DNA of 64,000 nt from Cyclina sinensis (Eukaryota; Mollusca; Bivalvia; Venerida; Veneridae): positions 24,798,977-24,862,976 of the forward strand of contig JAAONU010000010.1 in the NCBI GenBank assembly GCA_012932295.1. The letters are read 5' to 3'. Below are positions 9,901 through 62,521 of this stretch, piece by piece; positions within the stretch are counted from its first letter, which is position 1, and every line of letters begins with the position of its first letter. The notes beneath the pieces are model-generated. The model saw only the letters and a list, made by a program, of their open reading frames with translations. It ran no database searches and was not told the origin of the DNA. A program made the translations under genes and the position numbers.

Positions 9901-11219
9901 ACCAGGTTTTCAACGACCAAGTATTGATGTGACAGGAATTAGGAAGAAATATGGCAGTGAAGTAAAAATGGTGCTGTTATTTTGGTACCAACACAGAAAG
10001 TTGGTTTCAATAGTTCAAAATAAAAATAAATCAGATACCTGAGTAGCAATGCCAGGCTGTATTTTCATGTAAGCTACACACACGCCAAGCTGAGTATCAA
10101 TAGGTCAAAGTGTGCTGAAGTTATTGAGTAGAAGCTGAAAATTCTATTGTAAGCAAGTGACCTTGACCTTGCTCCCAGATATCATAATAGCAATCCCAAG
10201 CTGCATCTTAATATAAGCTACCCACACAGCAAGTTTGGTGTCAACAGGTCAACGCAAACTCAAGTTATTAGGTGAAAACTGAATTTCTTTTTTAAAGCAA
10301 CAGTGACCATGACCTTGTTCACAGACACCTGGGTAGCAATGCCAAGTTGCATCTTGATATCAGCTACCAAAATACTAAATTGAGTGTCAATAGGTCTAAG
10401 CAAACTAAAGTTATTGAGCGGAAACTTAATTTCTTTTTTTAGCAACAGTGACCTTGACCATGACCACAGACACCTGGGTAGCAATCCCAAGCTGCCTCTT
10501 AATATAAGCTACCCATATACCAAGTTTAGCATCCATAGACCAAAGCAAACTAAAGTTACTGAGCAGAAACTGAATTTCTATTTTTAGCAACAGTGAATTA
10601 GACCTTGATCACAGACATCTGGGTAGCAATGACAAGCTGCCTCTTGATATAAGCTACCAATACACCAAGTTTGGGGTCAATAGGTCAAAACAAACTCAAG
10701 TTATTGAGCGGAAACTGAATTTCTATTTTTAGCAACAGTGACCTTGACCTTGATCACAGACATCTGGGTAGCAATGCTAAGCTGCCCCTTGATATAAGCT
10801 ACCCATACACCAAGATTGGGGTCAATAGGTCAAAGCAAACTCAAGTTATTGAGCGGAAACTGAATTTCTATTTTAAACAACAGTGACCTTGACCTTGATC
10901 ACAGACACCTGGGTAGCAATCCCAAGCTGTCCCTTGATATAAGCTACTCATATACCAAGTTTGGGGTCAATAGGTCAAAGCAAACTCAAGTTATTGAGCG
11001 GAAACTGAATTTGTTTTTTTAGCAACAGTGACCTTGACCTTGATCACAGACACCTGGGAAGCAATCCCAAGCTGCCTCTTGATATAAGCTACCCATACAC
11101 CAAGTTTGGCATCAATAGGCCAAAGTAAACTCAAGTTATTGAGCGGAAACCAAAAGTTGACGCCCGCACGCCCGCCGACTTCAGCATTACAATAACCAGG
11201 TTTTCGTTGAAAACCTGGT
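9901..11219. mobile_element. Nonautonomous element with 15-bp terminal inverted repeats
   Basis: accaggttttcaacg at 9901-9915 is the exact inverse of cgttgaaaacctggt at 11205-11219. The right end is also a local hairpin (aaccaggttttc gtt gaaaacctggtt), and the left end overlaps a gaaaacc-a-ggttttc palindrome. The inside is almost wholly the tandem array listed next, followed by a GC-rich cgcccgcacgcccgccgac box. There is no ORF for a transposase and no clear target-site duplication. Confidence 0.65.
10140..11155 (+). repeat. ~146-bp tandem repeat, 7 copies
   Basis: The box gaccttgacc recurs at about 10159, 10304, 10450, 10594, 10740, 10884 and 11030 (spacing 144-146). Each unit also contains gggtagcaat, a polypurine gataagctacc, gtcaataggtcaaa and ttattgagcggaaac boxes. 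Confidence 0.92.
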
Positions 11220-20984: not shown

Positions 20985-21835
20985 ATTTTTGTTGAAAAAA
21001 AATAAAGGGCAGTAACTCAAAAGTTATGAAGCGGAGGATTAAAGGTTTTATGCATTTTACTTCTTCTCAATAAGATCTATCTACCCACGATGTTTCTTGT
21101 TGATACCTCTTGTAGTTTCAGAGTTATGTCCCGGACAAAGTTCAAAGTATAAAAAATGAAAAAAGGGCAATAACTCCGAAATTAGACAAGGCAGACTTAA
21201 GGTTCATATGCACTGCTATTCAACTTAGTGAGATCTATCTACCTACAAAGTTTCTTGTTGATACCTCTTGTAGTTGTAGAGTTATGTCCCGGACAAAGTT
21301 CAAAGGGTAAAAATGAAAAAAGGGCAATAACTAAAAAATAAGGCAAGGTAGAGTTTCGGTTCATATGCACTGCACTTCTACTCAATGAGATCTATCTACC
21401 TACAAAGTTTTTTGTTGATACCTCTTGTAGTTTCAGAGTTATGTCCCGGACAAAGTTCAAAGTATAAAAAAATGAAAAAAAGGCAATAACTCCGAAACTA
21501 GACAAGGCAGAGTTACGGTTCATATGCACTGCACCTCTACTCAATGAGATCTATCTACCTACAAAGTTTTTTGTTGATACCTCTTGTAGTTTCAGAGTTA
21601 TGTCCTGGACAAAGTTCAAAAAAAAAGAAGAAAAAAAAAGGCAATAACTCCGAAATTAGACAAGGCAGAGTTACGGTTCATATGCACTGCACTTCAACAC
21701 AATGAGATCTATCTACCTACAAAGTTTCTGGTTGATACTTCTTGTAGTTTCAGAGTTATGTCCCGGACAAGTAAATGCGGACGGACAGACGGACGGACAA
21801 AGCGGCAACTATATGTTCTCCTTTCGGAAGGTATA
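20985..21835. repeat. ~157-bp tandem repeat, 5 copies, with GGACGGAC terminus
   Basis: The box gtcccggacaaagttcaaa recurs at 21129, 21286, 21443, 21602 and 21760. Units contain gggcaataactc, gatctatctacctac and tgatacctcttgtag. The array ends in cggacggacagacggacgga and a ctcctttcggaaggtata box. Confidence 0.93.
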
Positions 21836-24354: not shown

Positions 24355-25110
24355 GAAACACTTATGCCCCCCTGGCAGTATACATTATGGGCAATGTACA
24401 TGGAAATGAAATTTACCTTTTGAACTTAAAATCAATAGGGGTTATCTACAGGTACTATCTGAGATGCATCAACCTTTCAAGTATGACACGTCTTAGCTAA
24501 AACTAGACCTAGATTTTCTTATGATAAATCTGTATACCAAATTTTATTTCAGTATGTGCAACATCTGCAAAGAAAATGAACGGAAACTGCAAATAATAGG
24601 AGTATTTCCGAAGTCCAAGGGGCATAACTCTGTCAAAAATTGCTCAATCGTACCAAAAACTGAACTTGATCTAGATATTCTTATGATTAATCTGTATACT
24701 AAATTTCATTTCGGTATGTGCAATCTCTGCGAAGAAAATGAACGGAAACTGCAAAAAAATGGAATTTTTCTAAGTCCAAGGGGCATAACTTTGTCAAAAA
24801 TTGCTTGATCAAACCCAAAACAGAACTTGACCTAGATGTTCTTATGATAAATCTGTTTACCAAAATTTATTTCAGTATGTGCAATCTCTGCGAAGAAAAT
24901 GAACGGAAACTGTTGACTGTTGGTGGAAATACAGACAGACCAACAGACAGCAGCAAAGCAATATGCCCTCCCTTTTTCAAAGGTCGGCATAAAGAACAAG
25001 CGCTGTGTTCAAAAAAATGTCATGCCCCCGGCACGGCCTCAAAATTCTAAAAGTTTTGTGACAGACAGACAGACCAAAAACAATATGCCCTCCCTCTTGG
25101 GGCATAGAAA
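24355..25110 (+). mobile_element. Tandem-unit element, ~160-bp units ×3
   Basis: Starts near gaaacacttatgcccccctg and ends tatgccctccctcttggggc. Internal units share cttgacctagat…cttatgat (24518, 24684, 24841), gcgaagaaaatgaacggaaa and tccaaggggcataact. A cagacagacc run precedes the end. The three + strand ORFs across it are made of the repeat and are not genes. Confidence 0.7.
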
Positions 25111-26869: not shown

Positions 26870-28115
26870 GCAGATTTTTTAAGTTTTCCCTATAAAAATC
26901 CTTGTGTAAAATCAAATGATCCCCCGGGTGGGGCCAGTTTTAACCCCAGGGTCATGATTTGAACAAACTTGGAAGAGGTCTACTAGACAATGCTGCACAC
27001 CAAATATCTAAACTCTAGGCAATGTGGTTTCTGACAAGAAGATTTTAAAATCTTTTCCTATATATAATTACTCTATGTAAAACATGTGCGAGGCCTTTTT
27101 GACCCAGGGGCTATGATTTGAACAAACTCGGTAGAGGTCCAGTAGAAAATGCTGTACACCAAATATCTAAACTCTAGGCCTTGTGGTATCTGAAAAGAAG
27201 ATTTTTAAAATTTTTCCTATATAACTCTATATAAAACATGTGACCCCTGGGGCGGGGCCATTTTTGACCCAGGAGCCATGATTTGAACAAACTTGGTAGA
27301 AGTCCACTGGACAATACTGCATACCAAATATCTAAACTCTAGGCCTTGCAGTTTTTGATAAGAAAATTTTTTCAAGTTTTTCCTATATAACTCTATGTAA
27401 AACATTTGACCCCTGAGGCTTGGCCATTTTTGACCCAGGAGCCATGATTTGAACAAACTTGGTAGAGGTCCACTGGACAATGCTGCATACCAAATATCTA
27501 AACTCTAGGCCTTGCAGTTTCTGACAACAAGATTTTTTCAAGTTTTTCCTATATAACTCTATGTAAAACATGTGACTTCCAGGGCTTGGCCATTTTTGAC
27601 CCAGGATCCATGATTTGAACAAACTTGGTAAAGGTCCACTGGACAATGCTGCACACCAAATATCTAAACTCTAGGCCTTGTAGTTTCTGACAAGAAGATT
27701 TTTAAGTTTTCCCTATATAACTCTATGTAAAATCAATTGACCCCTGGGGTGGGTCAGTTTTGCCCCACGGTCATAATTTGAACAAACTTGGTAGAGGTTC
27801 ACTAGATGATGCTTCATACCAAATATCTAAGCTCCAGGCTCTTTGGTTTCGGAGAAGATTTTTAAAGATCCAACTTTTAAAATCTAATTTTAGCTCCAGT
27901 GAACCAGAAATGCAATGGACCAGAACCATTTGAACAATCTTGGTAGAGCTTCATGCAAGGAATATCCAAGGAAAGTTTTATTTAATTTGGCCCTTTGGTT
28001 TCAGAGAAGATGTCATTTGGATGAAAAGTTGAAGACGGATGGACGGACGGATGGACGACGGACAAAGACTGATCAGAAAAGCTCATCCTGAGCACTTTGT
28101 GCTCAGGTGAGCTAA
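26870..28115 (+). mobile_element. Tandem-unit element, ~165-bp units ×6
   Basis: The box caaatatctaaactctaggc recurs at about 27002, 27161, 27326, 27492, 27658 and 27821, with tgacccaggagccatgattt, gaacaaacttggtagaggtc and ttcctatataactctatgta. Ends in gacggatggacggacggatg and a ctcatcctgagcactttgtg / ctcaggtgagct inverted pair. The minus-strand 87-codon ORFs (27217-27646) are repeat-derived. Confidence 0.85.
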
Positions 28116-31278: not shown

Positions 31279-33770
31279 TTAATGTTCTCCTTTGATTGTT
31301 TTAAACTGAAATGTTTTGCTGCCAAAACTGTCCTCCTCCAGTTCCTTCAGCATCCTAAACTGTGATGATGTTTTTATTTTGTGTATCTGTCTTCTAAATT
31401 CTTCCCCAGGTTTTATTTCACAGTCCTTTATTTCTACTAAAACAGATTGGGGTAGTTCTTGTATCAGGTCAACTAGCTGACGCAATGATGAAGCCGCCAT
31501 TGTCACTTCGTACAACACAACATGTGTATTTCCAGGTAGGTTGCTGTCTGCTGCAGGATAATTTCTTAACTTCAACACAGGATCTGGGTCATATAACCAC
31601 GCTAGCTTACACTTCTCTAGTATGGCAAGGTTGATTTCTATTTCTGTCACAGGTATTCCACACAGTGATAACGTTCTAAGTTGTGAGTGTTGAAGTAATT
31701 CCAGTCTGCTCTCAGGACAGGGAGGCCACCCGTGGTCAGTACAGTGTAAGATCTCCAGCTTAATCTTTCGTAAACACTTTGTCCTGGATCTAGATATATA
31801 ATTATAGAACTCTGTCAACTCGCTGTGACTGAGTGAACACAAGCTGATATCTATCACTTCTAACTTGTTTAAACTTGTGACTTCCTTACACGGTAAACGA
31901 GACAAGTCTGAACTTGAACTAGATAAATATAAACATTTAACAGACGTTTTCAGTAGTACAGCAATATCATTGTCAAAGTCTCCACGGTACAATACTTTCT
32001 CCAGGTTGTCTAGACGAGTCAATGAGAAATAATCAATAACTTCACGTGTACTCTTGTAAGGTGTCTCATCCATGTCTATATAAACTGACTTAATATTTTG
32101 TTGATTTCGTGTTGTCAGGAGGCGGAGATTTTTGCGGTATTGTTCTTGTTTACATCTGTAACTAATAAAAACATCTTCAATACACAAACTGGCTTGATTT
32201 TCTTGTGACATTTCTTTACAACAAGAAACCCATAGGTCCTGGTATTCTTTTAGTGGATGATAATATACCCTTTCTACTGAACTCCTATATTTATGGGTTA
32301 TTTCATCATCATTTAAGATTTTAACCAACTCCTGTGAAATCAAAGATAACATGTCTGCATTGATGCCGCTAATAAACAGAAGAATTTTTGATATTTCCAG
32401 AATGTCTTTAATACATTTACATTTTGATTTCACAGTTTCTAATACTGAAGATTGATCAATAGAGGAACTCATGTATAGTGCCGCGAAATATTCCTGTATT
32501 GATTTATGTGAGAAAAATATTTTTCGTGTCTGTTTACACAATTTAGTATCATCTTTAGTTTGTGTTACAAGTCCTGTTTTAAGGCAGAAATCTAAACTCT
32601 CTTTCAGATATTGCTTTGCTACAGAGACGTGAAATACAAGAATATTTTCCTCTTTTGTTTCCCGGAATAACGTATGAAAAGCAAGCTCTCCTAAAGACAT
32701 GAGAAGCGAGTAAAACTTTACACAGTTTTCAAGTTCACTGAAACAATGAGAGATATCGCCTTGGGGATATGCTGGCATATGTGGAAGCTCTTTGTTCGTG
32801 TATTTCACTACAGTTCTTGCAAGCATCAGTTCGACAATATTGCTGTATAATTCAGAGAGAGTATTTCCTAGATTTTTGTTGTCACACCATAGACATAGCA
32901 TGAACATTAGCAGTATTGGAATTACTGCTAATTCCGGCACACGTTTTTTTTCCAGATCTGAATTAAAGTTATCTACTTTCTTTCTCAAGATGTCTTTATC
33001 TTTCTCGCCACTAACATGTGATATAAACGACTCTTTTAATTTGTCCTCTGATGTCTGGTTAAGCCCAGTAATTTCAAGTTTCTGTTCAATCTGGCTTGCG
33101 TTTATGCCACCCACGCTTAATTTCCAAGGTCGGGTGGTAGTCAGCACTGTAGTAGTTTCTCGGGCGGCCCTGTGTGGGATAAATTTATCCGCCCTTGTAC
33201 AGTTGTTTGCAGGGTGTTCCCATTCGTCTAGACCATCCAGTATTACCAAACATCTTTCTTTATTCAGGACATTTTCTAAATCCGTCTTATTATATCCTGT
33301 ATGCCCAAATCTTGGAAAGAGCTGGTTGAAAATCATATCTTCAACTGAACATTCGCTGGAACTGTCTCTTAGTAACACTAGAAAAACGAAATCGAATCCG
33401 CTCAAAATTTCAATTTCTTCGTCTGAGAAGTGGTTTTTATCCTCGTCCTGTGGATCCTTAGATTGACACCATGTTAACGCCAGTCTCTTGCTAAAAGATG
33501 TTTTGCCTAAACCTGCATCTGCCATTAAATAAATTTCTTTGTAAGAGTTTCGATGCTTCTTGTTTTCCTCGTATTTGTACAATATATTGCAGAATGGAAC
33601 CTTTGTTTTTTCTTCTTTCCCACCACCAATATTTCTTTTGACGTTCACAGAATGTATATCTGGCATAACATAGAATTTTAGGAGAGAGATATCTTCCTCT
33701 TCAATCATTGGCGACAATTGAATGGTAGCGTACTGTTGTCTGTAGGTGGCCTTCAAATCGTTCCTTAGAT
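31279..33770 (-). CDS. NACHT-domain (NLR-like) receptor, main exon
   Basis: A single 2492-nt exon follows acceptor ATACATTTTAG and is entered in phase 1. It gives 829 residues to TAA at 31279; no ATG lies at its start (the first codon of the long ORF is TTG), so an upstream exon supplies the N terminus. Numbering from the TTG: a pre-NACHT region (1-70); Walker A ADAGLGKTS (79-87; the first Gly of GxxGxGK is Ala); Walker B CLVILDGLDEW (169-179); sensor-1-like VLTTTRPW (204-211); a helical/winged-helix part ending in FSHKSIQEYFAALY (415-428), typical of animal NACHT proteins; then a C-terminal ~400 residues with weak leucine-rich periodicity (LNKLEVIDISLCSLS, LRTLSLCGIPV). NACHT proteins are cytosolic STAND ATPases that oligomerise on sensing infection or damage. 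No effector domain is visible in this exon. Confidence 0.92.
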
Positions 33771-34075
33771 CTAAAATGTATGAAAAAAAGAATTATAAGC
33801 TTGATGTGTTGAACAATCTATCATACACTAAACGATTTGCAATTCAAGCTCTGAATAAGTTATAAAAGAGTTATGTAAAAACAACAACAACTTCAACATG
33901 ACTAACCTACATCATTAATAGTTTAATACATGTACTTCATTATTAAATATGTTGAGAAAACGCTTTACGAATATATACATGAATAAAGGTCATACACTCA
34001 AGCAGACGGATTATTTGAAAGCTGTCATTATGGTTATTTCAACTATAAAAACACTGGCACTGTATAGACTCTTAC

Positions 34076-43529: not shown

Positions 43530-44400
43530 ATGCCCCCACTAATGAAGTTTAGGGGGTGGGGGAGGGGTATAAAGAAGTGAGCTTGTCGGTCGGTCTGTCG
43601 GTCAGTCCATTTCATTGTTTCAGGATGATAACTCTTGAAGGAGTCAATGGATTGTAATAATTTTTTAGTAAACAAGTGTAACATCATAAAATACAGGTGA
43701 AGTTTGAATTTGGCCGCAGACCGCTATTTTTATAGAGTTATGGCCCCTTTTCATCTTCAGTTATGAAAAAAAAAATTCCGGACGATAACTCTTGAAGGAG
43801 TCAACGGATTGTAATATTGTTTAGCACACAGGTGCAACATCATAAAATACAGATGAAGTTTGAATTTGGGCTCAGACCACTAAATTTTTACAGAGCTATG
43901 GCACCTTTTCATCTTCAGTTTTGCACACACAAAAATGGTTTCCAGACGATTACTCTTTAAGGAGTCATTGGATTGTAATAATTTTTAGTACACCTGTGAA
44001 ACAGCTTAAAATACAGGTCAAGTTTGAATTTATGTTCAGACCACTACATTTTTACAGAGTTACGACCCCTTTTCATCTTCAATTTTACACAAAAATTGGT
44101 TTACACATGATAATCCTTTAAGAAGTCACTGGGTTGAAATTGTTTTCAGTACATAGATGAAACAACATTAAGTACAGGTCGAGTTTGAATCTGGATTCAG
44201 ACCACTTAAAATTTACACAGTTATTTTCATCTGTTATTTTACAAAGAGATGGTTTCCAGATGATAACTCTTTAAGGAGTCAATGGATTGTAATTATATTT
44301 TGTACTTAAATCTAACATCATTAAAAACAAGTTGATTTCAAATTTGGGCACAGACCACTAAATGTTTACATAGTTTAAGTTTATTTTCATTCTACCAGTT
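43530..44400. repeat. ~157-bp tandem repeat, 5 copies
   Basis: Head tttatgcccccactaatgaa and a ggtcggtctgtcggtcagtc run are followed by units with aactcttgaaggagtcaatg, ggattgtaat (43650, 43806, 43971, …) and aagtttgaatttgggctcag. A matching block with 3-4 units lies at 47165-47720 in copy 3. Confidence 0.88.
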
Positions 44401-47164: not shown

Positions 47165-47720
47165 ATTTTATACCCATCACAAACGAAGTGTTTAAGGTTG
47201 GGGTGGTTATATAGGATTGAACTTGTCGGACGGTCGGTCTGTTGGTCCTTCGATCAGTCCATTTCATGGTTTCTGGATGATAACTATTGAAGGAGTCAGT
47301 GGATTATAATAATGTTTAGTACACAGGGGTAACATCATAAAATACAGGTCAAGTTTGAATTTGGGCTCAGACCACTAAAGCTTTACAGATTTATGGCCCC
47401 TTTTCATTTTCAGTTTTACAAAAATAAATGGTTTCCAGACGACAACTCTTTAAAGAGTCATTGGACTGTAATAATTTTCAGTAAACCTGTGTTGCATCTT
47501 AAAGTACAAGTCAAGTTCGAATTTGGGTTCAGAACACTGCAGTTATACAGAGTTATGGCCCATTTTCATCTTAAGTTTTGCAAAACAAATCATTTCCAGA
47601 TGATTACTGTTTAATGAGTCAATGGACTGAAAGTATTTTAGGTACACAGATGTAACATCATTAAATACAGATGGAGTTCGAATTAGACCACTAAATGTTT
47701 ACATAGTTTTGGTTTCTTTT
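47165..47720. repeat. ~150-bp tandem units inside copy 3
   Basis: Same family as 43530-44400 (gtcggacggtcggtctgttg head; gaaggagtcagtgg, aagtttgaatttgggctcag units). Confidence 0.8.
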
Positions 47721-55249: not shown

Positions 55250-56110
55250 TAGCTAGATAAATTCTGAAGGTTAAAGACCCTTGATCAAAGGGTTTTGAGG
55301 TATTGGTCAGATCGGTAACTATTTAGCTTTGTGTAAAATTTGACAAAATAATAGGGGTCATCAACTATTCTATAATTTTGAAAGCTGTAACTATATAGAC
55401 ATACAGTTAAAGACAAATAGTTGTCAAATAATAGAGTGTAAATGATTCTAAAGATTTAGGTCACTATGACCTTGACCTTTGACACACTGACCCTAATATA
55501 TAAAAGGGGTCATCCACTCAATGTGAGCAATCATGATGTAAAGTTTGAAGTCTATACAAACATGATTGTAAAGTTACATTGCGGAAATGGTTTTCAATGT
55601 TTAGGTCTATATGACCTTGACCTTTTACCCACTGACCCAAAAATCAATAAGAATCATTCACTCAATGTGTGCAACCATTATACGAATTTTGAAATCAATA
55701 TAACAAATGGTTGTCGAGTTACAGAGTGTAAATGATTCTAAACATTTAGGTCACTGTGACCTTGACCTTTGAAATACTGACCACAAAATATATAGGGGTC
55801 ATCCACTTAATGTATGCAATCAAGATATAAAATTTGAAGTCTCTATAACACATGATTGTCAAGTTATATGGCGGAAATGGTTTTCAATTTTAAGGTCTGT
55901 GTTACCTTGACCTTTGAGCTATTGACTCCAAAATCAATAGGAGTCATTCACTCAAAGTGGGCAATGATCACATAAAGGTAAAAGACTATAAGCCACTTAA
56001 TACTCAAGTTATCCTCCAGAAGACAAATTGCTAACGTACGGACGGACAGACGGACGGACGGACGCCTTGGACCATAACATAATATGCCTCCTTCGGGCAT
56101 ATAAAAATAG
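55250..56110 (+). mobile_element. Tandem-unit element, ~146-bp units ×4
   Basis: Units carry tgaccttgacctttgacaca (about 55469, 55615, 55758, 55905), ggggtcatccactcaatgtg and tggcggaaatggttttcaat. Ends gacggacggacggac and tatgcctccttcgggcatat. The ORF at 55466-55735 is repeat-derived. Confidence 0.8.
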
Positions 56111-59299: not shown

Positions 59300-60226
59300 T
59301 ATAAACATTAACAGTTTAAAGAACACATTTGATTTTTAAGAGAAATTCTTATTAAAAATATGGTTGATATCTTATTTATTGTAGAAACAAAACTAGATTT
59401 TTCTTTTCCGGATGCACAATGGCAGGTAAACGCTTACCATTTATGGCGAGCTGACATAACTGACAATGGTGGTGGGGTTGCAATGTATTTAAGGTCCGAC
59501 ATGTTGGAGATAGAAAATCATATCTAGAATTTACAGATATATAATCCATATGTATAGAGGTAATCTTAAACAAAGAGAAATGGCTTTTGATGGGGGCGTT
59601 TAAACCTCTATCTATGTCTAATGAAACGTTTGAACAAAACTGTATGACAACTTTAGATAAATGTTGTTCTAAATATGATGACTATGTCTTGCTAGGAGAT
59701 TAAAATTTTCATTTACTTGATCCATCAAAATGTGCTCCTTTAAATGATATTATTGATGTTTTAACTTGTCTAGTCTAATTAAGAAGGCTACTTGTTTTTT
59801 ACTAAAAATGGTGTACAATCTCTTCTGGATGAAATTTTAACTAATAGTCATTCGTCTTTTGGGAAAGTATGTAATCTTAATAGTGGACTGAGTGATGTGC
59901 ACAATTTGATTGCATTTCAATTAAAAGATGAGGCTAAAAGAAAAAAATCAAACTGGATTAACTACAGGTCTTTTAAAATTTTTGAAACTAAAAAGTTTAA
60001 TGAGGACATACAGGCAAGTTTATCAAAATTAAGCCAGGATACTGTAAATTTAAATTTAGCATATACAAACTTTAGCAAAACTTTTATGGAAGTCGCAGAC
60101 AAACATGCTCCTTTAAAACGCAAACGTTCAATGGATCAGTCAGTACCATATATGAATGAAACCTTAAAACAGGCCATATATAAGAAACGCATGTTACAAA
60201 ATATATATAATAAATACAAAACTTAA
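59300..60226 (+). pseudogene. LINE endonuclease and linker region
   Basis: Motifs in separate frames: VDILFIVETKLDFSFP (59360-59410, Glu of the active site), WRADITDNGGGVAMYLRSD (59450-59500), LLGD (59690, followed by a stop where Phe-Asn is expected), and GLSDVHNLI (59884-59915, where SDHH is expected, so a catalytic His position is altered). The last open part (59792-60226) is the EN-RT linker with KHAPLKRKR. APE-type endonucleases nick the target for reverse transcription. Confidence 0.78.
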
Positions 60227-60692
60227 AAAAACTGGAAAAAATACCTTTAACAAAGAAATCTTGTAACAAGCCTTAAAAGAAAATCGATAAATAAATATTT
60301 TTTTAAGAAAGATGTGTGGGTGGATGTAAAAATAAATCATTTTGACCTACTGTTAAACCTTTCATAACAAATAGAGGTACTATTATGAAAAACGATACAA
60401 TTTTATGTGAAAAAGATACTCTAGTAAGTGATCAATCCAAGATGTAAGATAGTTTTAATGATTTTTTGTACATGTTGCTAAGGACATTGGTGCTGACTCG
60501 ATACCAATTAACGACAATCATCCTAGCCTTAATTCTATGAGTAAGAATCTCAAATCTGATAAAAAAAACAACTAAACTTTCAACCTGTAAATAACTCCTT
60601 CATTAGTAAACAGATTGATAAATTATCATCTAAAAAGCAACAGGTCAAGATGGCATATATGCTAAACTTTAAAATATTCTTAACCTTCAGTC

Positions 60693-60935
60693 GTGGAACA
60701 TATTACAGATATGGTTAATCTGAGTTTCCAGTCATCGTTTTTTTTCCCCGACAGTCTTAAAACAGCTAAGGTAGTTCCGGTCCATAAGAAAAATAATACT
60801 CTTGATAAAGGTAATTATAGACCGGTTAGTATCCTTCCAATTGTGTCTAAAATCTTCGAATGGTCTATTTATACCCAGCTAACGGATTTTTTCAATGACC
60901 ATTTTAATACTTATGTATCTGCTTTTAGACCATCG
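60693..60935 (+). pseudogene. LINE reverse transcriptase, 5' part
   Basis: The frame encodes FPDSLKTAKVVPVHKK (RT motif 1 region), GNYRPVSILPIVSKIFE (motif 2a) and VSAFRPS, which breaks off at TCG just before TGTAGCC at 60936, the edge of the inserted element. The rest resumes at 61353. Confidence 0.85.
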
Positions 60936-61081
60936 TGTAGCCGGGTACAGGTTTATAGGTGATAAATCGATAAGGCAGGACCGTGTGGCTTGGTAACTCA
61001 GTCGGTGGAGTGTCCGCCCTGTAAGCGGAAGGCCCTGGGTTCGAGTCCCGGTCGAGCCACGATTTTTCACCACCTGTTACA
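60936..61081 (+). repeat. Left LTR (146 bp) of the TRIM-like element
   Basis: TG…CA ends. The first ~50 bp (tgtagccgggtacaggttta … aaggcagg) and the last ~22 bp are identical to the right LTR. Contains the tRNA-like segment 60987-61059. Confidence 0.88.
60987..61059 (+). other. tRNA-like cloverleaf inside the left LTR
   Basis: A canonical 73-nt layout: acceptor ggcttgg/tcgagcc (7 bp with two G-U), ta, D stem actc/gagt (perfect) around agtcggtg, anticodon stem tccgc/gcgga (perfect) with loop cctgtaa, variable aggcc, T stem ctggg/cccgg with loop ttcgagt, discriminator a. Box A taactcagtcgg and box B ggttcgagtcc are intact. The loop would give anticodon UGU (Thr) but has C at position 33 where tRNAs have U. 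It lies wholly inside an LTR and is duplicated in the right LTR, so I do not call it a tRNA gene. Confidence 0.8.
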
Positions 61082-61206
61082 TTTGGCGCCCAACGTAAAT
61101 AACCTACGTTATAATTTGGCTACTGCTTTGGCACCTCGAGAATGTTTCACAATATTCTCTGTGACTCTGAGAATTTGGGACGAATTCTAAATTTGGAGGG
61201 GGTATA
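61082..61206 (+). other. Internal region of the TRIM-like element
   Basis: 125 bp with PBS (61084-61096) and purine tract. aacgtaaataacctacgtt (61091-61109) can form a small hairpin just past the PBS. No coding capacity. Confidence 0.8.
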
Positions 61207-61352
61207 TGTAGCCGGGTACAGGTTTATAGGTGATAAATCGATAAGGCAGGACCGTGTGGCTTGGTAACTCAGTTGATGGAGTGTCCGACCTGTAAGAGGA
61301 AGGCCCTGGGTTCGAGTCCCGGTCGTGCCACAATTTTTCACCACCTGTTACA
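61207..61352 (+). repeat. Right LTR (146 bp) of the TRIM-like element
   Basis: Same ends as the left LTR. The tRNA-like segment (61258-61330) has changes that weaken the anticodon stem (tccga/gagga) and one change in the acceptor strand (tcgtgcc). Confidence 0.88.
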
Positions 61353-61800
61353 AACGCACTCTACTTAAAATTACTGAAGACTGGAAAAGATCTCTGGATG
61401 ATAATAAATATGTGGCAGCTATCCTAATGGATCTGTCAAAAGCCTTTGACTGCCTACCCCAGGGCCTACTGCTCATGAAACTTAGATGTTATGGGGTCTC
61501 TGATCAAGCCATAGATTTATTAACTAACTATTTAACAAATAGGAAACAATACGTCAAACTTTGTTCAAATTTAAGTTCTTTTAAATATATTAACACGGGG
61601 GTTCCTCAAAGTTCTATCTTAGGCCCTGTATTATTTAACATATTTATAAATGAATGTTTGATTTTGTACATTTCTGTGATCTTTATAATTATGCAGATGA
61701 CAACACTCTATCATGCAGTGATACAAATACTGACAATTTTGTTGAATATTTAGAGTCTGACAGTCAGTCACTAATAAAATGGCTTTCGGACAATCATATG
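61353..61800 (+). pseudogene. LINE reverse transcriptase, 3' part
   Basis: The frame resumes as TLLKITEDWKRSLDDNK, then AAILMDLSKAFDCLPQGLLL (motif A, catalytic Asp in DLSKAFD), GVPQSSILGPVLFNIFIN (motif B region). A frameshift near 61660 is followed by LYNYADDNTLSC (61682-61720), the YADD catalytic box, in the next frame, then SLIKWLSDNHMKANPD. The catalytic residues are kept but the frame is broken. Confidence 0.88.
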
Positions 61801-62149
61801 AAAGCAAACCCGGACTAATTCCAAGCCATTGCTATCGGTAAAAAAATAGGGATCAAACTATAAGCTTTATGTAAATGGTAGTACAGTCCCATGTGATTAA
61901 TCTGTTAAACTTCTAGGGGTAACCTTTGATATTAAACTCACATTTAATAAATGTATTTCTAACATTTGTAAAAAAGCCTCAAAACAACTCAACGTGCTAA
62001 AGAAAATAGGTAAAAATAAATGAAGGCTAGGGAAAATGAACATATATTACTCATTTATACTATCAAACTTTAATTACTGCCCTCTCACCTGGCACTTCTG
62101 TTGAGAAACGTATACCAAAAAACTAGAGAAAATTCAAGAAAGAGCACTA

Positions 62150-62521
62150 CGATTCATTTATGATGACTACCAATCAGACTATATCTCACTTTTAATACAG
62201 TCTAAATTACCAAATTTAAAACTAAGACGAATCAGAACTATACCACTTGTAATGCACAAAATCATTTATAAAAGAGGACCATCGTATCTACATGATCGTG
62301 TTAATATAAAAACTCATTCTTTCAATTTTAGGTATAAAAATGAAGCCATCATTCCTCAGGTAAGAACTATCAGTTATGGCAGCAACTCTTTTCGTTCCTA
62401 TGCACCAAAACTTTGGAATTTACTTCCCCAACACCTCAGACTGGAAGTGAATTATGATCAGTTTAAAAGCTTAATTGCTGCACGGAATGGAGAAAATAGC
62501 TCATGTACGTTCTGCCAATAA
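62150..62521 (+). pseudogene. LINE ORF2 C-terminus
   Basis: RALRFIYDDYQSDY (about 62140) and then MHKIIYKRGPSYLHD, FRYKNEAIIPQVRT, FRSYAPKLWNLLPQHLR (62252-62500), the usual end of CR1-type ORF2 proteins, stopping at TAA 62519-62521. Confidence 0.82.

Follow-up and report, generated by a model that had tools for sequence, protein, structure and literature searches.

Features of the locus

The window analysed here is a stretch of 64,000 nucleotides from the genome of the clam Cyclina sinensis. On its minus strand, positions 31282 to 33789 contain an 836-residue open frame with a NACHT domain and many relatives in venerid clams; among the 120 matches listed for this protein, Mercenaria mercenaria and Ruditapes philippinarum are the organisms named, and their entries head the list. 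Tandem arrays with a unit of about 145-166 bp occupy positions 10032-11150, 21059-21770, 24501-24912, 26872-27867, 43617-44375, 47266-47684 and 55413-55976. A decayed LINE (59333-62521) exhibits pieces of an endonuclease and of a reverse transcriptase, and is interrupted by the element described below. Upstream of the interruption the LINE matches positions 2-47 of RVT_1 (20.8 bits, below the curated cut-off), and downstream positions 63-142 (37.2 bits).

The interrupting sequence, from position 60936 to 61352, is a complete TRIM, and its two direct repeats exhibit 96% identity to each other (Table 1). The first-pass annotation of this DNA had described 146-bp repeats with TG...CA ends, a PBS 2 bp inward of the first repeat, a purine tract and a total length of 417 bp, all of which we confirmed on the sequence. 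The PBS is complementary to what we take to be tRNA-Lys. The same annotation had placed a tRNA-like unit with box A and box B in each LTR. This stands in so far as Rfam detects a tRNA in both LTRs, above its gathering score of 29, and box B is present in both. However, the 3' unit is damaged, ARAGORN calls the 5' unit alone, and box A of both LTRs deviates from the usual tRNA promoter consensus, against which the two boxes were judged.

Table 1. Features of the TRIM and of its borders in the window
Feature	Positions	Strand	Remarks
Left target duplication, ATCG	60932..60935	+	1 mismatch to the right copy
5' LTR, TGTAGC...GTTACA	60936..61081	+	146 bp
tRNA-like unit of 5' LTR, tRNA-Thr(TGT)	60987..61059	+	cloverleaf intact; Rfam 58.4 bits; ARAGORN 60987-61060
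Box A of 5' LTR, TAACTCAGTCGG	60994..61005	+	one base off the usual TRGY start
Box B of 5' LTR	61038..61048	+	intact against the usual consensus
T5 tract of 5' LTR, downstream of tRNA-like unit	61063..61067	+	putative (leaky) Pol III terminator
Interior	61082..61206	+	125 bp
PBS, TGGCGCCCAACGT	61084..61096	+	tRNA-Lys type; 2 bp (TT) inside LTR end
Purine tract, GGAGGGGG	61195..61202	+	followed by TATA (4-base gap), then 3' LTR
3' LTR	61207..61352	+	146 bp
tRNA-like unit of 3' LTR	61258..61330	+	several pairs broken; Rfam 35.7 bits; no ARAGORN call
Box A of 3' LTR, TAACTCAGTTGA	61265..61276	+	degraded
Box B of 3' LTR	61309..61319	+	intact against the usual consensus
T5 tract of 3' LTR	61334..61338	+	putative transcript end
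Right target duplication, AACG	61353..61356	+	3/4 bases as in the left copy

A dispersed family with LTR-type insertion borders

The first genome search with the window element yielded 48 matches. Since 40 of the 1094 first-look candidates were scored, this number is a lower bound, and it rules out a single-copy artefact. Thirty-nine fetched loci together with the window copy constitute the first set of what we call family A. Simple two-LTR copies account for 34 of the 40; the others (L009, L024, L031, L033, L040 and L041) have extra LTRs or are cut. An exact 4-bp target duplication flanks 25 of the 34 two-LTR copies and is absent from nine, and 30/34 are flanked by duplications with at most one mismatch. 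In a control with shuffled pairing of the flanks (2000 shuffles), 4-bp duplications numbered 1.17 on average and 6 at the maximum. Duplications of 3 bp were found once among the 34 copies and those of 5 or 6 bp never. Three loci (L013, L018, L021) have the same left flank and almost the same right one; they look like a single insertion that was copied, so that the non-redundant count is 23/32. Five further two-LTR copies of family A came from a search with the LTR, one with an exact duplication (L058), three with one mismatch (L052, L060, L081) and one with three (L061); L052 and L058 have their flanks in common.

Some loci of family A hold three or four LTRs in tandem. Among the 3-LTR forms, L009 and L033 exhibit exact duplications, and L024 and L040 do not. 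Six solo LTRs were found, five with an exact duplication and one with a single mismatch. The two LTRs of a copy differ at 0-10 of 146 positions and are identical at eight of 35 loci (two of the 35 pairs being taken from longer arrays). This low divergence points to a recent movement of the family. As the copies are young, their likeness to one another is a poor indicator of selection.

We also searched the genome for the junction itself, a T5 followed by 3-25 bases, TTACA, two bases and the PBS. This pattern occurs 300 times, places with six T being counted twice (four such among the 100 rows listed), and its backward control does not occur. The window element is a member of a dispersed mobile family with LTR-type insertion borders. 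The first-pass annotation had predicted many copies, target duplications of 4-6 bp and solo LTRs; copies, 4-bp duplications and solo LTRs were all found, and the TRIM anatomy that it had proposed is upheld by the duplications, the PBS, the purine tract and the 300 junctions.

The tRNA-like unit and the T5 tract in family A

Applied to 84 LTRs of family A, ARAGORN called tRNA-Thr(tgt) in 76 and a tRNA of other or uncertain type in three, and made no call in five. All 21 pairs of the cloverleaf are present in 57 of the 84. Every one of them has exactly one T5, at LTR positions 128-132 in our column table. Pattern fits in 78 family A LTRs were obtained for box B in 71, for box A in 65 and for T5 in 77. 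Runs of four or more T were found in a single one of 43 family A interiors. Nevertheless, 25% of the dinucleotide shuffles likewise leave the stretch from one T5 to the other free of T4; the absence of T4 could therefore be due to chance and is by itself no proof, and we dropped T4 avoidance as an argument for Pol III.

A related family without the cloverleaf

The search with the family A LTR also led to a second family, B, first met at C58 (L056/L057), C8 (L075/L076) and C6 (L078). Its element has LTRs of 141 bp and an interior of 113 bp, of which the first 22 bases are identical to those of family A. In family A the LTR ends, the PBS and the purine tract are fixed features. The LTR of family B gave 1964 first-look candidates in the genome and that of family A 1188; of the 1964, 40 were scored, and candidates are not to be equated with confirmed copies. 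Exact 4-bp duplications flank 25 of the 30 fetched family B loci. By reading of the flanks, these loci represent 24 insertions, 19 of them with exact duplications.

ARAGORN called no tRNA in any of 37 distinct family B LTRs, and Rfam found none in the single locus scanned; family B is thus tied to the Helenus class discussed below through its homology to family A only. On average 8.8 of the 21 cloverleaf pairs are kept in family B, compared with 20.5 in 21 sampled sequences of family A. Box B is nevertheless found in 35 of the 37 LTRs and a T5 or longer tract in 34, so both of these signals have survived the loss of the cloverleaf. Only one of the 37 LTRs fits the box A pattern, and 36 contain a T4 near LTR position 51 that might stop Pol III. 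The poor fit to box A and this T4 argue against a simple Pol III reading of family B.

Comparison with known TRIMs

The first-pass annotation knew of no named family with such a layout. This was mistaken, since such TRIMs had received the name Helenus in a survey of 2024 (Kojima; PMC10886601), and the class of the window element was thus already known. In the parts of that survey on which we draw here, Helenus, of the TRIMp3 group, comprises TRIMs with tRNA-derived sequence in the LTRs, a PBS, a purine tract and, in animals, 4-bp target duplications. Like family A, Helenus elements carry tRNA-derived boxes A and B in each LTR and have solo LTRs; tandem arrays are described in one Helenus family, and some bivalve families are readable as tRNA-Thr. 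tRNA-Lys is among the PBS types of bivalve Helenus and is the type of family A. The length of family A (417 bp) falls within the 311-1263 bp of Helenus and under the TRIM limit of 1000 bp. The difference lies in the host. The 51 bivalve families, seven of which can encode tRNA-Thr, belong to five orders of Pteriomorphia (PMC10886601), whereas Cyclina is a venerid, within Heteroconchia. That survey searched genomes related to those with known families, and its parts used here contain no statement of a fruitless search in heterodonts (PMC10886601). Family A is assigned to Helenus by its layout and by the traits that the survey describes. Our search of the open-licence literature on Helenus retrotransposons returned the 2024 survey and a meeting report, and nothing further.

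Other TRIMs resemble family A in part. The plant TRIM Cassandra also harbors the sequence of a Pol III gene in its LTR, occurs in tandem forms and is described as having a conserved promoter and terminator (PMC10886601, PMC7215508), but it carries 5S rRNA instead of tRNA and a methionine PBS. Ajax of nemerteans is, as described, an animal TRIM with a Pol III-type sequence in its LTR, but with a 5S fragment, 5-bp duplications and a tRNA-Leu PBS (PMC10886601). The Rfam scan of the window element finds tRNA alone and no 5S rRNA, which rules out identity with Cassandra or Ajax; the earlier analogy with Cassandra, with tRNA in place of 5S, holds. The biv-TRIM of bivalves (Satovic 2019, PMC6934838) is found in venerid clams among others and has solo and tandem forms. 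Its repeats of 202-218 bp and inner part of 77-80 bp, against 146 and 125 bp in the window element, rule out identity; it is described as having no clear PBS, and the portions of that report used here make no mention of a tRNA unit in the repeat.

Proposed transcription and replication

We hold it highly probable that the window element is a Helenus-type TRIM, which has no room for gag/pol, carries tRNA-derived sequence in its LTRs, and would depend on a Pol III transcript, priming by tRNA-Lys and helper enzymes acting in trans. Judging from its sequence, the family would be transcribed by Pol III as follows. Transcription would start at the 5' tRNA-like unit, read through the first T5 part of the time and stop at the T5 of the 3' LTR. 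The predicted RNA of about 350 nt would have an 81-nt repeat (from the tRNA-like unit to T5) at each end. As the same T5 signal would be passed once and obeyed once, it must be leaky. tRNA-Lys would then prime at the PBS, the 81-nt terminal repeat would carry the first strand transfer, and the purine tract would prime the second strand. Enzymes of some LTR retrotransposon, probably Gypsy-like, would copy the element and integrate it in trans. One problem for such a template is that an intact cloverleaf should invite cleavage of the full RNA by RNase P and RNase Z; family B, without the cloverleaf, would avoid these cuts. There is a precedent in Cassandra, in which transcription is described as starting in the 5' LTR and stopping in the 3' LTR (PMC10886601), and read-through of inner LTRs is presumed for its arrays (PMC7215508). 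For Helenus itself, the Pol III promoter is likewise a putative one in Kojima's survey, and the origin proposed is the insertion of a SINE into a TRIM's LTR (PMC10886601); the first-pass annotation had suggested a possible intermediate between SINE and LTR element. The mechanism that it proposed, that of a Pol III-transcribable LTR element, is plausible.

The most serious alternative, which we judge rather unlikely, is that Pol II transcribes the TRIM; the template would then have its promoter elsewhere, and the tRNA-like unit would act as a passenger or an insulator. Pol II is the polymerase of typical LTR elements, and a TTTATA lies about 30 bp upstream of the tRNA-like unit. Family B, moreover, has lost the cloverleaf and the box A pattern, yet exhibits the larger number of (unconfirmed) first-look candidates. 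On the other hand, family B mostly retained box B and T5, and T5 occupies the place of a possible R/U5 border, adjoining U5 and the PBS.

A mobile tRNA-Thr gene, with LTRs that give the host a working tRNA and an element that spreads as a carrier of tRNA genes, is improbable. The frequent tRNA-Thr calls and complete cloverleafs of family A are in its favor, as are the seven bivalve families able to encode tRNA-Thr, although Kojima thought such a function unlikely (PMC10886601). Young copies, however, keep any sequence, and the cloverleaf is missing from family B.

A SINE with a tRNA head, or an array of such tRNA-headed units with the interior as spacer, might account for the tRNA-like unit with its two boxes and for the rows of three or four LTRs, but we give it almost no credence: the hallmarks of a tRNA-derived SINE are a single tRNA head, a tail and variable duplications, whereas two LTRs with LTR ends at both borders, a PBS, a purine tract and duplications fixed at 4 bp rule out the SINE, and these duplications, exact also in two 3-LTR forms, and the borders of the solo LTRs rule out the array.

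Chimeric and inverted insertions

Four loci are mixtures of families A and B, three of them between exact 4-bp duplications. L075 exhibits the order LTR_A, B interior, LTR_B, A interior, LTR_A (flanks CATA/CATA). L078 exhibits the order LTR_A, TT, LTR_B, B interior, LTR_B (flanks TTAG/TTAG), as would result from the joining of an unprocessed U5 end to a U3 end. The mixture L056/L057 is also inverted (flanks TGAA/TGAA). The fourth, L110, is truncated on the left and lacks a duplication.

Inverted copies have the U3 terminus at both outer ends. Exact duplications flank four of five such loci, namely L056/L057, L089 (GTTG/GTTG), L116 (CATT/CATT) and L122 (CTAT/CTAT), compared with none of 20 cross pairs; the flanks of L119 (GTAG/GTTC) are not exact. 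At the centre of L116, L119 and L122 lies TT followed by TGGCGCCCAACGTGG, and at that of L089 lie 23 other bases. L031 is a sixth inverted structure. At G000:C3:35823363-35823526, two T5-U5-PBS junctions lie on opposite strands, 130 bp apart, and probably represent another inverted copy.

The occurrence of chimeras and inverted copies between exact 4-bp duplications suggests a shared machinery and an aberrant route of reverse transcription. For the inverted copies, plus-strand strong-stop DNA may copy part of the tRNA-Lys primer and then be elongated along a plus-sense LTR; the resulting molecule, bounded by U3 at either side, would be integrated with an ordinary 4-bp duplication. Most of the primer-like PBS tails behind this reading came from loci picked for such tails. 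As far as these searches show, the host branch, family B and the chimeric and inverted insertions are new; the literature on odd products of reverse transcription was covered at the level of a search listing, and we do not claim the inverted forms as unreported.

Possible traces of the primer and the search for a helper

At loci not chosen for their tail, the PBS ends in AACGTAAAT in 35 of 41 family A interiors, in AACGTGGGA in two and in one-base variants in four; family B exhibits AACGTAAAT in 18/18. After the addition of loci picked for GG, tails of the GG type amount to 7/46 in family A (five GGGA, two GGGG) and 1/19 in family B. The GG might have been copied from the tRNA-Lys primer. This reading is weak, since the search pattern that found L116, L119 and L122 itself demands GG, and the two tail states could be subfamilies.

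The pattern of an LTR end followed by the PBS with GG occurs at 31 places in the genome, of which 20 were looked at. The interior is complete at six; ten depart from the family sequence just past the PBS, and four match neither LTR A nor LTR B along the LTR. L120, L121, L126, L128 and L132 consist of an LTR, TT and 15-17 bases of the PBS, followed by unrelated DNA, with no 3' LTR within at least 670 bases downstream; L124, read over a shorter stretch, resembles them in layout. At L130 (G000:C17:4814143), which has no match to LTR A or B, the LTR end is followed by about 36 nt that resemble the reverse complement of a tRNA 3' half with CCA, presumably that of tRNA-Lys, as if the primer had been copied beyond the usual stop.

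L114, L115 and L127 have TTACA ends and the family PBS and match neither LTR A nor LTR B. The two such places on C1, LTR-type repeats at L134/L135 (G000:C1:64820700-64826500), are 98% alike over 801 bp; L127 resembles these repeats for 50 bp at the PBS only. No Pfam domain was found in the one 2-kb piece scanned between the two C1 repeats, in its three plus-strand frames. None of the places looked at yielded an autonomous helper; mobilization by a Gypsy element with the same PBS, a trait ascribed to Helenus, may apply in Cyclina, where the helper would probably be a Gypsy-like LTR retrotransposon.

Implications

The Helenus class, known from one survey of 2024, is here confirmed from single copies with their target duplications and placed in a venerid clam. 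For genome annotation, this implies that tRNA finders will report family A LTRs as tRNA-Thr genes, as they do for 76 of the 84 LTRs. If the Helenus elements of Pteriomorphia and of Cyclina represent one lineage, its origin is older than the divergence of these branches, or a transfer took place between them.

A wider reading is possible, though we put it forward with considerable doubt: Helenus would be present in both great branches of bivalves, and in Cyclina a family with a full cloverleaf and a family with a promoter remnant would share one reverse-transcription machine, which would also make inverted cDNAs, so that the genome would preserve, in this family, a record of the primer step and of strand transfers that failed. 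Young, high-copy families with chimeras and inversions offer an entry to the question of how a Pol III transcript may become a substrate for the enzymes of an LTR retrotransposon.
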